Origin: an uncultured Bacteroidales bacterium
GTDB taxonomy: Bacteria > Bacteroidota > Bacteroidia > Bacteroidales > UBA932
Direction of reading: 5' to 3'
Assembly: GCA_944326315.1 (NCBI GenBank)
Contig: CALVDP010000016.1
Location: 1-43,131, forward strand
DNA: 43,131 bases
Shown: positions 7,333 to 11,955 of the stretch, one piece after another
How the letters are laid out: each line of letters opens with the position of its first letter
Numbering within the stretch: the first letter of the stretch is position 1
Program-made: the position numbers and the translations under genes
The notes under the pieces: model-generated
Databases searched by the model: none
What the model saw: only the letters and a program-made list of their open reading frames with translations
What the model was told of the DNA's origin: nothing

Positions 7333-8469
7333 TCAGTCGGCAAGTTCTTTCACGGCAGTCACGAAGCGATCTGCTGTATCAGTGGAAATTGTCAGCGACG
7401 GCAGCAGCCTTATCACCTTGGGACCTGCAGCGCCTGTGAAGAAATGTCCTTCGAACAGGAGCCGGTCTCTCAGGTTTTCATAGCCGTCCTTGACCTCAAG
7501 GCCGATCATCAGCCCGCGTCCCCTGTACTCCTTGAACGGATGTACCGGATTCCCGCCAGGGCAGAGTGCGTTCCTGAAATATTCGCCTACCTGGGCCGCA
7601 TTCTCTACCAGATGCTCGCTTTCAATGATTTCCAGGACTGCAATGGCTGCGGCACATGCCAGGTGGTTGCCTCCGAAAGTGGTGCCGAGCATTCCGTATT
7701 CAGGCTTGAATGCCGGGGATATCAGTACACCTCCGATAGGGAAGCCGTTCGCCATCCCCTTAGCAGTGGTGACAATGTCTGCCCTGATGCCGGCATGCTG
7801 GTGCGCAAAGAATTGTCCTGTGCGTCCGTATCCTGACTGAATCTCGTCAAGGATGAGCATTGTGCCGGTCTTGTCGCAGATCTCCCTGAGGGCGACAAGG
7901 AAGCCGTCCTCAGGCTCATGTATCCCTGAAACTCCCTGTATGCCTTCTATGATGACGGCGGCGAACTCCCTTGTGTCCAAAGCCTTCTCTGCGGCTTCGA
8001 TATCGTTCAGCGGTACGAGCTCCACATTGGCCGTCGAGTTGAACGGAGCCTGTATCTTCGGATTGTCCGTGACGGCTACGGCACCTGATGTCCTGCCGTG
8101 GAATGCTTTCCCGAATGCGAGGACCTTGGCCCTGCCTGTCTGGAATGATGCCAGCTTAAGTGCATTTTCGTTGGCTTCCGCCCCTGAGTTGCAGAGAAAC
8201 AGGGAATAGTCATCATACCCGCAGGCCTTGCCGAGCTTGCCCGCCAGTTCCTTCTGAAGGGAATTCTGCACGGCATTGGAATAGAAGCCGAGCTTGTTCA
8301 GCTGTTCGGTGACAGCTTTGACATAGTGGGGATGGCAATGTCCGACGGAGATGACGGCATGCCCGCCGTACAAGTCGGTATAGACTTCTCCGTTTTTGTC
8401 CCATAGTGTGGTTCCGAGCCCCTTCACCGGCTCGATATCCCATAGCTTGTATACTTTAAACAGATCCAT
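7333..8469 (-). CDS. argD: Acetylornithine/succinylornithine aminotransferase
   Basis: PLP-dependent class III aminotransferase that converts N-acylglutamate semialdehyde to N-acylornithine. It has 378 residues from ATG 8469. Visible features: LCNSGAEANENALKLA (PLP phosphate site, residues 93-108), FHGRTSGAVAVT, LILDEIQSGYGRTG with the PLP-ring Asp D208, and TTAKGMANGFPIGG with the Schiff-base Lys K237. The active-site region is intact. It is the last gene of the right arginine unit and starts 71 nt after argC, the largest spacing in that unit, so an internal promoter cannot be excluded although none was recognised. Acyl preference cannot be judged from sequence. Confidence 0.95.
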   Translation of the reverse strand: MDLFKVYKLWDIEPVKGLGTTLWDKNGEVYTDLYGGHAVISVGHCHPHYVKAVTEQLNKLGFYSNAVQNSLQKELAGKLGKACGYDDYSLFLCNSGAEANENALKLASFQTGRAKVLAFGKAFHGRTSGAVAVTDNPKIQAPFNSTANVELVPLNDIEAAEKALDTREFAAVIIEGIQGVSGIHEPEDGFLVALREICDKTGTMLILDEIQSGYGRTGQFFAHQHAGIRADIVTTAKGMANGFPIGGVLISPAFKPEYGMLGTTFGGNHLACAAAIAVLEIIESEHLVENAAQVGEYFRNALCPGGNPVHPFKEYRGRGLMIGLEVKDGYENLRDRLLFEGHFFTGAAGPKVIRLLPSLTISTDTADRFVTAVKELAD

Positions 8470-8540: not shown

Positions 8541-9512
8541 TTAGAATGCCGAAGCCTTGAGCTTCAGCCCCGCGGTCTCGTCGAAGCCGAACATGAGATT
8601 CATGTTCTGTACCGCCTGTCCTGACGCTCCCTTCACAAGGTTGTCTATTATGGAGCTGATATGTACATAGCCGTCATGCAGCTCGACATGAAGCAGCCCC
8701 TTGTTCGTGTTTATGACTTCTTTCAAGGAAATTCCGTCTTCCGAGTGGAAGACGAAAGGGGAGTCCTTGTAGAAGTCTTTGAAAAGTTCGGTGTATTTCC
8801 TTTCATCCATACCTTCTGCCGCCCTTGTGTACACGCTGGCGAATATGCCGCGGGTGAAATCACCTCTCATTGGTACGAAATTCACCACCGGTTCCTTCCC
8901 GGAGTGCCTTCCCGTGTTTTTCCTTATTTCTGCAAGGTGCTGGTGGGTGAACAGCTTGTATATGGAGATATTGTTGTCCCGATAGCTGAAATGAGAAGTG
9001 CCGGACAGCTTTTTCCCGGCTCCTGTCGACCCGGTAATGGCTGTCACATGTACTTCATCCTGTATCAGTCCGGCATCTGCAAGCGGAAGAAGTGCAAGCT
9101 GTATGGCAGTGGCGAAGCATCCGGGATTGGCAATGTCATGTGCGTTTCTGATATTCTCCTTGTCCCCTTCGCACAGGCCATATACGAAATGACGTCCTGC
9201 ATAGTCTCCGTCAAGCCTGAAATCGTTCCCGAGGTCGATTATCCTGCAGGAATCACTGATATTGTGAGTGTCGATGAATTCCCTGGACAGGCCGTGGCCC
9301 AGACACAGGAAGAGTACGTCAGGGTCTCCGATCTCCGTCCCGAATGTCAGATCCGTCTCGCCGATCAGGTCGCGGTGGACTTCACTTACGGGCGTGCCTT
9401 CGGACGAAGTAGTCGTGGCCGCCGTGATTTCCACTTCAGGATGCCGGAGGAGTATCCTGAAAAGTTCTCCTCCGGTATATCCCGTACCTCCTGCTATTGC
9501 CGCTTTGATCAT
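8541..9512 (-). CDS. argC: N-acetyl(acyl)-gamma-glutamyl-phosphate reductase
   Basis: NADPH-dependent reduction of N-acylglutamyl phosphate to the semialdehyde, third step of arginine synthesis. It has 323 residues. The Rossmann motif AGGTGYTGGELFRIL begins at residue 7, and the catalytic cysteine lies in ANPGCFATAIQLALLP (C132). TGSTGAGKK and a HQH motif in the catalytic domain follow. The length fits the type 1 ArgC group. It starts 12 nt after argG, indicating one operon. Nothing is unusual in its active site. The substrate would be N-succinylglutamyl phosphate if the pathway runs on succinyl intermediates. Confidence 0.95.
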   Translation of the reverse strand: MIKAAIAGGTGYTGGELFRILLRHPEVEITAATTTSSEGTPVSEVHRDLIGETDLTFGTEIGDPDVLFLCLGHGLSREFIDTHNISDSCRIIDLGNDFRLDGDYAGRHFVYGLCEGDKENIRNAHDIANPGCFATAIQLALLPLADAGLIQDEVHVTAITGSTGAGKKLSGTSHFSYRDNNISIYKLFTHQHLAEIRKNTGRHSGKEPVVNFVPMRGDFTRGIFASVYTRAAEGMDERKYTELFKDFYKDSPFVFHSEDGISLKEVINTNKGLLHVELHDGYVHISSIIDNLVKGASGQAVQNMNLMFGFDETAGLKLKASAF

Positions 9513-9524
9513 GATGTCGATGTT

Positions 9525-10736
9525 TTAGTCCTTGACCACGTCTTCGGCATGCGCGCTGTTCACGCTGTAATATATCTTGAGCGGATTCGCAAGCACCTTG
9601 GTGAAGCCCACCACGTCGGCTCCTGTGTAGGACTTGTTGATCTCACCGTATGAGCCGAACTTGGAGCTCATCAGATCATGTCCGCTCGTGCATCCGAGTA
9701 CTGCGAAATGATATGGCATAAGCGCCACTTCCACTTCTCCGCAGACATTCTTCTCCATGCTGTCCATCATGGCTTCCATGTCCCTGAGCACAGGGTCAAG
9801 ATACATGGCCTCGTGCATCTGCTGCCCGTACCAGCCTGCAATCTGGTCTTTCCAGTAGAGCTGGCCTTTGGTCAGGACATGCTTTTCAAGCAGGTGGTGG
9901 GCCTTGATGATGATGAGCGGGGCTGCTGCCTCGAATGCGACACGGCCCTTGATACCTATGATAGTATCACCTACATGAATATCCCTTCCGATGCCGAACG
10001 GCCCTGCGATGTCCTTTACCTTCCGTATGACATCTACAGGAGACATCTTCTCTCCGTTCACGGACACGGGCTCGCCGTGTTCGAAGCCTATCCTGATATG
10101 CTCGGGCGCAGTCTTGGTGACCTTGGTCGGATATGCCTCCTCAGGAAGCCAGCCGTCTGACGAAAGCGTTTCCACTCCGCCTATGCTGGTGCCCCAGAGC
10201 CCCTGGTTAATCGAATATTTGGATTTCTCCCAGGATGATTCATAGCCGTGCTCCTGCAGATACTTGATCTCTTCCTGCCTTGTGATGGAAAGTTCACGGA
10301 TAGGAGCTATTATCTTCACCTCTGGAGCGAGAATCTCGAATACAATGTCGAACCTGACCTGGTCGTTGCCGGCTCCGGTACTTCCGTGCGCTACGTAGCC
10401 TGCTCCAAGCTTCTTCACGAGTTTGAGAACCTCGAGAGCCTGGAACACACGCTCCGAACTTACAGAAAGCGGATATGTGGCGTTCTTAAGTATGTTGCCG
10501 TATATCAGGTATTTGATACCATGCCTGTAGTAGGTGTCCACTGCGTCTATGTTGGTGTGCGAGGCTGTCCCGAGCTGGAGAGCCCTCTGTTCTATGGCTT
10601 TTTCCTCCTCTTTGGAGAATCCGCCTGTGTTCACCATGACGGTATGGACTTCAAGACCTTTTTCGTTTTTCAGGTAAGGCACGCAGAAAGACGTGTCAAG
10701 ACCTCCGCTGAATGCAAGTACGACTTTGTTGTTCAT
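9525..10736 (-). CDS. argG: Argininosuccinate synthase
   Basis: ATP-dependent condensation of citrulline and aspartate to argininosuccinate. The 403-residue length is normal. The PP-loop AFSGGLDTSF lies at residues 8-17, followed by VNTGGFSKEEE. AHGSTGAGNDQVRFD at about 120 is the nucleotide/citrulline segment, and NQGLWGTSIGG is the aspartate-binding region. It is the second gene of the right arginine unit, 52 nt after the GNAT gene and 12 nt before argC. Only one copy is visible. No anomalies were noted. Confidence 0.96.
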   Translation of the reverse strand: MNNKVVLAFSGGLDTSFCVPYLKNEKGLEVHTVMVNTGGFSKEEEKAIEQRALQLGTASHTNIDAVDTYYRHGIKYLIYGNILKNATYPLSVSSERVFQALEVLKLVKKLGAGYVAHGSTGAGNDQVRFDIVFEILAPEVKIIAPIRELSITRQEEIKYLQEHGYESSWEKSKYSINQGLWGTSIGGVETLSSDGWLPEEAYPTKVTKTAPEHIRIGFEHGEPVSVNGEKMSPVDVIRKVKDIAGPFGIGRDIHVGDTIIGIKGRVAFEAAAPLIIIKAHHLLEKHVLTKGQLYWKDQIAGWYGQQMHEAMYLDPVLRDMEAMMDSMEKNVCGEVEVALMPYHFAVLGCTSGHDLMSSKFGSYGEINKSYTGADVVGFTKVLANPLKIYYSVNSAHAEDVVKD

Positions 10737-10788: not shown

Positions 10789-11361
10789 CTATTGCGCCAT
10801 CCGTATGCCGGCATCCTGCACGGCAATGTGTTCCATCGGGTCATACAGAAGCCCGGTGCAGAGGCACATCTTGTAATTGTTGTTCTGGAGGATAGGGAAA
10901 TTCTTGCAGCCCTGGCAGCCTTTCCAGAACTCCGGATCATGCGTCAGCTCCCCGAACGGCACAGGCCTGAAGCCGATCTCATAGTTCATTTTCATGACGG
11001 CAGCTCCTGTGGTGATACTGAATATCTTGGCGTCAGGGTATTTTTCCCTGGACAGCCTGAATATCCTCTGCTTGATCCTTTTGGCAAGCCCGATTCCCCT
11101 AAAGGCGTGAGCCACGATAAGCCCGGAATTGGCTACGTATTTTTTCCCTTCCCAGGTCTCGATATAGGAAAAACCTGCAAATTTCCCGTTCCTGGCGATT
11201 GCAATGACAGATTTCCCTGCCTTCATCTTCTCGATTATGTACTCCGGAGTACGTTTTGCGATTCCGGTGCCTCTTTCCTGGGCAGATATGAACATCTCGT
11301 CACATATCTCCTGCGCGTACTTCGCATGGCCGTTGTTGGCCACAAGAACATCGATTTCCAT
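10789..11361 (-). CDS. GNAT acyltransferase, candidate N-succinyl(acyl)glutamate synthase
   Basis: Predicted first enzyme of arginine synthesis, acylating glutamate's amino group. ATG 11361 gives 190 residues; the longer frame to 11448 consists of leader sequence. A GNAT fold is supported by the acyl-CoA loop in LIVAHAFRGIGLAKRI (residues 81-96, R-G-I-G pattern) and the following beta strand KIFSITTGAAV. The C-terminal quarter carries CQGC (149, 152) and CLC (166, 168), a possible metal-binding cluster unusual for GNATs. It heads argG-argC-argD; in Bacteroides thetaiotaomicron a gene in the equivalent place was assigned by fitness data to N-succinylglutamate synthesis, as I recall. No argA or argJ is visible. 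Function is inferred from context and the succinyl-type ArgF'. Confidence 0.8.
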   Translation of the reverse strand: MEIDVLVANNGHAKYAQEICDEMFISAQERGTGIAKRTPEYIIEKMKAGKSVIAIARNGKFAGFSYIETWEGKKYVANSGLIVAHAFRGIGLAKRIKQRIFRLSREKYPDAKIFSITTGAAVMKMNYEIGFRPVPFGELTHDPEFWKGCQGCKNFPILQNNNYKMCLCTGLLYDPMEHIAVQDAGIRMAQ

Positions 11362-11480
11362 TTCTCTGCTATCTATGATTAACTGGTTTTTATCCTGAAA
11401 AACAATAAAGCCCCTAACGGCAAGACAAACCTCGATTGTCAATTGCAATTAATGCTTTCATATATGTATCTGTACTTTGG

Positions 11481-11510
11481 AAAAGGCGAGGGTTTCCGAA
11501 TGTCACCCTC
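11481..11510 (-). terminator. Possible attenuator hairpin in arginine leader
   Basis: On the minus strand GAGGGT (11510-11505) pairs with ACCCTC (11493-11488) and is followed by GCCTTTTCC. The loop contains ATTCGG (11501-11496), which can instead pair with CCGAAT (11520-11515) at the end of the leader ORF. The two pairings overlap topologically and are probably exclusive. The U-tract is short (four), so this is a weak intrinsic terminator at best. ACCCTCG can also pair, with a bulge, to CGAGGT near 11434-11429. Confidence 0.4.
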
Positions 11511-11570
11511 CTATATTCGGACAAGGACAGATGCCGCAGCCAGGCCTCGTCGGACTCTGTTGCCAGGCAT
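11511..11570 (-). CDS. Candidate arginine leader peptide (19 aa)
   Basis: A short ORF reading MPGNRVRRGLAAASVLVRI lies in the leader of the GNAT-argG-argC-argD unit. Four of 19 residues are Arg, at positions 5, 7, 8 and 18, encoded AGA, CGA, CGA and CGA. In the first half of proS, read by eye, Arg is mostly AGG with some AGA, CGT and CGC and no CGA, so CGA looks rare. An in-frame ATG at 11603 would extend it to 30 residues but sits only about 3-5 nt after the predicted transcription start. The ORF overlaps hairpin arms at 11571-11566/11535-11530 and 11520-11515/11501-11496. No Shine-Dalgarno is seen, which is normal in this phylum. Translation is unproven. Confidence 0.5.
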   Translation of the reverse strand: MPGNRVRRGLAAASVLVRI

Positions 11571-11612
11571 CACTATGATAGATATGTTTTTCCTCAAATC
11601 CATAAAACGGTG

Positions 11613-11641
11613 CAAACATACGAATATTTTTTCAATTACAA
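11613..11641 (-). promoter_or_regulatory. Promoter of the GNAT-argG-argC-argD unit
   Basis: On the minus strand TTG (11641-11639), an 18-nt spacer and TATGTTTG (11620-11613) match the Bacteroidota -33/-7 pattern well. The predicted start near 11606 leaves a leader of about 245 nt before the GNAT ATG, long for this genome and containing the candidate leader peptide. Confidence 0.65.
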
Positions 11642-11740
11642 GCCTTTTTTCGGAAATACTCGTATTTGTCACTGCATATTCGTGGGCCTGTTGTTTTCCG
11701 GATACCGTATTCCCCGATGGAAATCACGGACAGCTACCAT

Positions 11741-11955
11741 AACGTCATTAACGTCAGTTCGACGAATTATTCTGTTCAATATCAGAGATTCCGTCGAACT
11801 GACGTTACGATTTCTTCGAAATCCCTTTCCTTTTTCGTGTCACCCCTCTTAAATTCTCCCCTGCGTAGGGGAGAACTTACGCCGGACTTCGTCCTCTATA
11901 GAGGTAATTCGATGAAATGAATGGAATGAATTTCATCGAATTCACGTTCATTAGG
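11741..11955. repeat. Mosaic palindromic intergenic repeat, copy B
   Basis: Second copy of the element at 4770-5245. Hairpin 1 has arms 11749-11767 and 11788-11807 (core CAGTTCGACGAAT). The mini-hairpin GATTTCTTCGAAATCC follows at 11809-11824, then CCCTTTCC-TTTTTCG-TCACCCC, a perfect 8-bp hairpin at 11854-11875 (TTCTCCCC/GGGGAGAA), the GCCGGACTTCGTCCTCTATAGAGG block from 11881, and hairpin 2 with arms 11906-11918 and 11930-11942. The remaining bases 11642-11740 and 11956-12075 show no gene or clear signal. Confidence 0.75.

Follow-up and report, generated by a model that had tools for sequence, protein, structure and literature searches.

A predicted arginine-codon leader peptide ahead of an arginine operon in Bacteroidota genomes without ArgR

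Overview

The GNAT-argG-argC-argD operon of an uncultured Bacteroidales bacterium is probably regulated by a leader peptide whose arginine codons stand in for the repressor ArgR, a reading that we draw from sequence comparison. The operon lies in the window, the whole 43,131-nucleotide stretch of DNA that was analyzed. By comparison of leaders and genomes, we show a short upstream ORF, its Arg codons, two hairpins downstream of it, and a near-exclusion between this leader and ArgR. An earlier note on this DNA had proposed arginine attenuation of the his/trp kind; the core of that proposal held (the ORF, the Arg codons, the hairpin at the stop codon, and the occurrence in genomes lacking ArgR), but its his/trp-like details did not. 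The leader suggests a way in which Bacteroidota that lack ArgR could regulate their arginine synthesis, and its features are concrete and testable: an ORF near the 5' end, rare CGA codons, a stop codon at a hairpin, and an invariant second hairpin.

Promoter and arginine operon

The promoter and genes of the operon are as follows.

11641-11639, minus strand: promoter -33 TTG, read from the sequence
11620-11613, minus strand: promoter -7 box TATGTTTG, with an 18-nt spacer from the TTG
10792-11361, minus strand: GNAT-family gene, the first gene of the operon (PF00583, 22.8 bits versus a cut-off of 20.7)
9525-10736, minus strand: argG (TIGR00032, above the cut-off)
8541-9512, minus strand: argC (TIGR01850, above the cut-off)
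7333-8469, minus strand: argD (TIGR00707, E 6e-114; 381 bits, below the cut-off of 410, and clear)

The promoter TTG-N18-TATGTTTG that the earlier note had named is present at that place when the sequence is read (for the Bacteroidota promoter consensus, see PMC7366714), and the NCBIfam and Pfam profile matches bear out the gene order GNAT-argG-argC-argD downstream of the leader. No NCBIfam family matched the operon-opening GNAT gene. In the window this gene stands ahead of the arg genes, and its relatives are found in many Bacteroidota. A second promoter look-alike, TTG-N18-TATTGTTT, lies inside the leader at 11428-11400 in the window and its close relatives and is lost in more distant leaders of the hairpin-bearing type, such as L016 to L019.

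The leader ORF and its arginine codons

The ORF at the start of the leader has three parts that matter here.

11603-11511, minus strand: leader ORF MDLRKNISIIVMPGNRVRRGLAAASVLVRI, 30 codons plus TAG, with frame, Arg codons, and stop conserved
11547-11552, minus strand: tandem Arg codons CGA CGA (codons 18 and 19), Arg-Arg in 15/15 close relatives
11517-11519, minus strand: Arg codon CGA (codon 29), the second-to-last sense codon, kept across hairpin-bearing leaders

The 19-codon ORF that had been described previously, MPGNRVRRGLAAASVLVRI, is a real sequence but is only the 3' part of this 30-codon frame. Its supposed start Met is codon 12, which encodes Met in just 5 of the 15 close relatives; the upstream start codon (11603-11601) is ATG in all 15. 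The Arg codons, placed earlier at 5, 7, 8, and 18, are at 4, 16, 18, 19, and 29 in the full ORF. The ATG lies 9 nt downstream of the -7 box in the window, and this gap was 7 to 9 nt in 43 of the 50 ORFs that were picked automatically from the 53 leaders carrying the second hairpin described below. Since the ATG follows the box this closely in most leaders, the predicted mRNA would probably be leaderless or close to it. In Bacteroides thetaiotaomicron, approximately 3.7% of 5' untranslated regions (UTRs) are shorter than 10 nt, and short ORFs are mentioned in its long 5' UTRs (PMC7366714).

Among the 15 close relatives, codon 18 is always CGA, codon 19 is CGA in 11 and CGG in 4, and the V-R-R and the Val-Arg pair at positions 28 and 29 are invariant, with codon 29 always CGA. 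The other residues vary freely: pairwise codon differences among the 15 close ORFs numbered 1501 nonsynonymous versus 465 synonymous, and the indels among L001 to L017 (alignment A1) were all multiples of three. The peptide drifts while its Arg positions stay invariant, which indicates that codons are being kept and not the peptide. The hexamer GTCCGA is nucleotide-invariant in close relatives, and the constancy of the GTC ahead of CGA suggests an RNA-level constraint outside the leader-peptide model. Aligning the leaders of GNAT-argG orthologues, the check that the earlier note had recommended, thus found the ORF frame, the Arg codons, and the stop-codon hairpin conserved.

Across the 50 automatic picks, CGA was the second-to-last sense codon in 47, or in 48 when the true ORF of L112, read by eye, replaces a wrong pick. 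The three leaders outside the picks are L009 and L102, in which the TAG is lost and the ORF ends three codons later, and L129, in which the ORF is cut by the end of the contig. CGA accounted for 103 of the 180 Arg codons in the picked ORFs versus 5 of 112 in seven genes of the window. Some upstream ORFs contain a single Arg codon, such as MKKIGNIIFVRL (followed by a stop). That of L120, MIAVGVSSLR and a stop, is 10 residues long with one Arg; it abuts the second hairpin, and the first hairpin is absent. Judged by its sequence, the window's ORF has the features that a leader ORF of an attenuator would have, being short and enriched in codons for the end product. Near the start of otherwise dissimilar leader peptides, [TR]-G/N-x-I recurs at codons 4 to 7 (11594-11583 in the window); the DNA there is often ACATA or similar, and the Ile codon 7 is ATA in 15/15 close relatives.

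Arginine-rich leader ORFs are also present in more distant Bacteroidota. From the best 80 of 111 GNAT loci, a promoter box is followed in 30 of the nearest 32 (L001 to L032) by an ORF whose C terminus contains Arg; the GNAT gene is present and the upstream ORF absent in L025 and L027. In the 48 distant loci of the same best 80 of 111 (L033 to L080), a short Arg-dense ORF, defined as having at least 3 Arg in 8 residues, preceded GNAT at 39, compared to 7.0 expected from Markov shuffles. Examples are SRRPRI, RHRRPFMPRV, RRRRIRE, and SPRRFRP, each followed by a stop, and a few of the Arg-dense matches, such as that of L053 near GNAT, are perhaps due to chance. Arg was second to last in 27 of 36 C-termini from other clades, chosen by eye. 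The records with Arg-rich leader ORFs before GNAT bear the names Bacteroidales, Flavobacterium, Pedobacter, and Chitinophaga, among others, and the nearest named relative among the matches listed was Candidatus Cryptobacteroides merdigallinarum (L001). Among the papers listed from the PMC literature on leader peptides or ArgR, we found no arginine leader peptide described in Bacteroidota. For Flavobacterium psychrophilum, strong clues for leader-peptide attenuation before amino acid operons have been reported in PMC9723704, whose supplement may include arginine.

A hairpin at the stop codon

The ORF runs directly into a hairpin.

11488-11510, minus strand: stop-codon hairpin GAGGGT (11510-11505)/ACCCTC (11493-11488), beginning at the base after TAG

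Three stems had been set out for the leader in the earlier note. Their inverted repeats all exist where they had been placed, but two of the three are poorly conserved. For the stem 11571-11566/11535-11530, 3 of the 16 close rows were fully paired (66/96 cells, with 11 changed on both sides), and for CCGAAT/ATTCGG, 5 of the 16 were (82/94 cells, none changed on both sides). The GAGGGT/ACCCTC stem is kept, with GGAGG and a downstream CCTC in 24/24 A1 leaders when read row by row; as aligned in A1 its 3' arm is misaligned, hence just 58/96 cells in the 16 closest rows. An H-type pseudoknot combining CCGAAT/ATTCGG with GAGGG/CCCTC was rejected on the 5/16 count of fully paired CCGAAT/ATTCGG rows. 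The AGGAGG was also rejected as a Shine-Dalgarno site, as no constant start codon follows it by eye, and a CCCU/AGGG complementarity linking the two hairpins, sought by eye, was not general.

In several clades, a hairpin has the stop codon at or within its 5' arm. At 36 loci chosen by eye from the best 80 of 111, the region around the stop codon folded more strongly than a control stretch did in the same leaders (mean z of -1.26 versus -0.58, p 0.004), with single-locus values from -3.8 (clear) to +0.4 (none). A hairpin covered the stop codon in many folds from other clades, including TGATAGC...GCTATC in Chitinophaga, and L052 and L070 carry the variants TGATAGG/CCTATCA versus TGACAGG/CCTGTCA. 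The hairpin is placed where a ribosome at the regulatory codons would be expected to affect the fold.

The U-tract and terminator logic of his/trp attenuators, on which the earlier note had also relied, found no counterpart, as the window leader has no intrinsic terminator. No terminator-like hairpin with a T-run was found in 11300-11750, and mutually exclusive antiterminator and terminator folds with a U-tract were not found in this leader, which is without a terminator-like site. Such sites were seen in 12 of 53 other leaders (L022, L024, L028, L031, and L032 to L080, from the best 80 of 111).

A second, nearly invariant hairpin

Between the ORF and the GNAT gene lies a second hairpin.

11400-11466, minus strand: second hairpin element, match of model R1, with its paired part at 11458-11407
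11420-11446, minus strand: hairpin core GCAA-[UU]-GACAA-(UCGAGGU)-UUGUC-UUGC with a TAR/7SK-like bulge, in 53 leaders

This almost invariant hairpin at 11458-11407 is the strongest RNA feature of the leader, and it was missing from the features that the earlier note had listed. In the window, its sequence, AATTGCAATNGACAATCNMGGTTTGTCTTGCCRTTAGGG, and the stop codon are 64 nt apart; the distance was 30 to 112 nt in other picks, with that of L120 abutting and the value for L112 coming from the wrong pick. Across the 53 leaders, the core is invariant except for the second bulge base (T in 46, C in 4, and G in 3), two loop bases, a base R that yields a U-G or U-A pair, and one pair in L104, where C-G is replaced by U-A. 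This near-invariance is partly selected, since the 53 leaders were collected by a pattern with 3 substitutions allowed, and four pairs of them are near-duplicates. A looser scan of 86 GNAT loci (6 substitutions) found 30 with the element, all of them close, and no more divergent form.

The structure AAU-u-GCAA-[UN]-GACAA-(UCNMGGU)-UUGUC-UUGC-c-RUU plus outer pairs left 82.6% of the cells paired, compared to 35 to 45% when the pairing was slid. This was measured on alignment A2, which holds 43 of 47 stretches; L009, L010, L113, and L124 were left out, and one base is deleted from the 3' flank of the hairpin in L124. Pairs changed on both sides numbered 7 of 19, mostly in the outer helix, a value reached by 5 of 500 shuffles. 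Eight core pairs never vary, and neither the covariation score nor the count of double-changed cells was above shuffles (120/500 each). The outer flanks formed 10.2 pairs with their own partner versus 8.5 with a swapped one (p 0.0014, uncorrected), with 13 of 47 showing the opposite.

The element is present as a single copy in the 2.4-Mb genome at up to 3 mismatches, and this, together with an architecture that recurs in relatives, demonstrates that it is not due to chance. It was found in 3 of 393 genomes of an order sample, all of the same genus, and in 20 of 299 genomes of a family sample, from 3 of 25 genera; each carrying genome, the window's included, had one copy. In a phylum sample of 395 genomes, R1 matched the window's genome only, plus two weak hits at E ~0.005. 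Both were rejected: that of L195 is core-like, yet antisense inside a 639-residue open frame, and that of L194 is an A/T-rich inverted repeat. Rfam had no match in the window, with just two weak, unrelated hits (E up to 5) at 11340-11660. Copies of GTCCGANNNTAGGAGG were sought in 16 genomes, where the 12 exact matches were all at the arg locus and one-mismatch hits elsewhere were fewer than in a reversed control.

Two other readings of the element were rejected. A second peptide, IAIDNxGLSCR and a stop, would have its variable loop bases sharing one codon and altering the residue, and its stop is sometimes lost. The 5-bp stem and 7-nt loop resemble an anticodon arm, but a mimic of one would carry A at the center of its anticodon in 33/53 leaders and thus have no constant Arg anticodon. 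Other shared elements occupy the same place in other leaders. The leaders of L022 and L024, approximately 150 nt upstream of GNAT, have an upstream ORF ending in RVRR and a stop, and a different element, AAGCCAG..GATTTCAGCTCGC..CAGGCTT followed by ACAGCAGAATC, replaces the second hairpin. Judged by eye, a common second hairpin with a GGTGNGTCC-like loop lies between the upstream ORF and GNAT in L041, L046, L057, L065, L067, and L074.

Proposed mechanism and alternatives

We propose that the short ORF, whose start all but coincides with the 5' end of the mRNA, would be translated, and that scarcity of charged tRNA-Arg would make the ribosome pause on the Arg codons, chiefly the second-to-last CGA. 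A ribosome of standard footprint with the last CGA in its A site would extend over the stop codon and into the beginning of the first hairpin. The leading edge of the paused ribosome would thereby cover the 5' arm of the stop-codon hairpin. When arginine is plentiful, the ribosome would finish and leave, and the hairpin could form. The second hairpin may then act as the output module that lowers expression under arginine-rich conditions, although both this role and the direction of control are inferred. Since the window leader has no intrinsic terminator, Rho-dependent termination, control of GNAT translation, and mRNA decay are all candidate routes.

The ORF might instead be untranslated and conserved for RNA structure alone, as the nucleotide invariance of GTCCGA in close relatives could suggest. 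We give this reading almost no credence, given that start, stop, and frame are kept, that length changes in close relatives are multiples of three, and that dissimilar Arg-rich C termini recur in other clades. The fungal arginine attenuator peptide senses arginine as a nascent chain in the exit tunnel, and a similar arrest could be imagined here, as the Arg codons adjoin the stop codon and arginine is the likely signal. However, the residues between the Arg positions are not conserved, and the L120 peptide has 10 residues and one Arg, so arrest of this kind seems highly improbable. The second hairpin could be bound by a protein, either as RNA or as the DNA operator of a repressor, with arginine or a product of the operon as the signal and the ORF secondary. 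Specific recognition by a protein typically leaves a sequence almost wholly invariant and with few compensatory changes, as here, and each carrying genome has a single copy, but no candidate protein was found and the ORF has a wider distribution than the hairpin. In addition, the hairpin varies only in the bulge, the loop, a mismatch, G-U/A-U exchanges, and a single core pair whose change is compensated; this confined variation, taken with the better pairing of the outer flanks with their own partner than with a swapped one, fits an RNA structure better than a DNA site. We regard a protein site of either kind as unlikely.

The same hairpin could be an arginine aptamer of the sandwich type, which free arginine would stabilize to lower expression, with the ORF as a second input. 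A G-C pair adjoins the bulge in such a sandwich. A bulge pyrimidine and a pair of the stem form a triple (U23 and A27-U38 in TAR; U40 and A43-U66 in 7SK), the base preceding the bulge forms the floor (A22 and A39, respectively), and the two bulges are called identical in secondary structure (PMC6189040). The hairpin has this motif at the level of secondary structure, with an A-U pair, a bulge pyrimidine, and a G-C and then an A-U pair above, so that its A-[U N]-G-A opposite U-C-U matches the TAR/7SK arrangement. The bases that the sandwich requires are invariant in the 53 leaders, the spare bulge base varies, and the hairpin precedes an arginine operon. Against this, the motif was recognized after seeing the sequence, and by a rough count a given 2-nt bulge would match by chance about 1 time in 250; the sandwich has no need of the invariance that the loop and stem also show; and the hairpin was found in one family only, whereas the leader ORF occurs without it. 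On balance, an aptamer appears somewhat less likely than a protein site. In its fullest form, this reading would make the leader a natural arginine riboswitch, pairing a TAR/7SK-type sandwich with the Arg-codon ORF and reading both free arginine and tRNA-Arg charging. Free arginine binds TAR weakly. With this and the post hoc recognition of the motif in mind, we hold such a riboswitch to be a shade more doubtful again. If true, it would place two arginine inputs in one leader, in bacteria that lost or never had ArgR; the only paper that the PMC literature listed for an arginine riboswitch was unrelated.

Relation to known systems

Bacteroid-trp RNA is of the leader-peptide type. Like it (RF01692, PMC2864571) and the his/trp attenuators, the leader described here has an ORF rich in product codons and then hairpins; unlike the his/trp attenuators, it has no intrinsic terminator that we could see, a stop codon at a hairpin, a clade-specific invariant second hairpin, and arginine as the amino acid concerned. 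The nearest worked example is orf34 of Salmonella speF, likewise an upstream short ORF with consecutive Arg codons, where arginine sets ribosome progress and mRNA fold, and where Arg codons, Rho, and the fold interact (PMC6386406). It differs in controlling ornithine decarboxylase, in its use of Rho, ribosome binding site (RBS) unfolding, and RNase G, and in lineage and sequence (PMC6386406). In Staphylococcus aureus, the leader ORF rbfL also senses arginine limitation through rare Arg codons, but it occludes the RBS of a biofilm regulator and not that of a biosynthetic operon (PMC13009471). The cys leader peptides and LEU element of Actinobacteria resemble the present leader in having regulatory codons near the stop and no obvious terminator and differ in amino acid, phylum, and RNA folds (PMC1262725). 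HIV TAR and 7SK share the bulge secondary structure A-UN-GA/UCU, but they bind arginine side chains of proteins, have a different loop, and have no link of descent to the hairpin (PMC6189040). Finally, ArgR with its ARG boxes serves the same operon, and presumably the same signal, in sister genomes, but it is a protein with a DNA site and is missing from the window's genome.

ArgR and the RNA leader across genomes

The earlier observation that no argR lies near the operon holds genome-wide, as neither PF01316 nor PF02863 was found in the window's genome (G000, 95.6% complete). We compared ArgR and the second hairpin element in a genus sample of 120 genomes, each at least 85% complete, of which 84 have the GNAT gene and 53 have ArgR. 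Of the 83 genomes with a parsed locus, 29 had the element only, 46 had ArgR only, 7 had neither, and 1 had both (Fisher p 1.1e-14, which, like the other statistics here, ignores kinship). These 83 genomes derive from 86 loci. Three GNAT matches in the genus were left aside, namely G733:C50 (a fragment at a contig start), G720:C3 (a match with a stop), and G735 (a short fragment); 6 of the 86 loci have less than 420 nt of upstream sequence, and L122, from a genome with GNAT and neither ArgR nor the element, has just 203 nt. Where argR lies beside the GNAT locus, it is just upstream on the same strand in 34 cases and divergent in 7, and the element is present in none of them. These results demonstrate a near mutual exclusion of the element and ArgR within the genus, so that sister genomes with one or the other amount to a natural exchange of a protein repressor for what would be an RNA-ribosome sensor.

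In the distant set (L022, L024, and L032 to L080 minus L039, from the best 80 of 111), ArgR was found in 0 of 50 genomes, and the control genomes of this search matched as expected. An Arg-rich ORF was detected in 42 of the 50. As the other 8 are also without ArgR, this set agrees with the proposed leader-peptide control and provides no contrast.

The sole genome with both is G739, which is 88% complete with 2% contamination. Of its two GNAT loci (L147 and L190), one has the RNA leader and the other lies next to argR; either a double system in nature or contamination could explain this. ARG-box-like sites discriminated poorly, occurring at 15 of 41 ArgR-adjacent loci versus 2 of 30 element loci. 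At L122, L133, L137, L138, and L140, in genomes where ArgR is elsewhere or was not found, ARG-box-like palindromes of the TGCATAATATGCA type, recognized by eye, lie at promoters that have no RNA leader.
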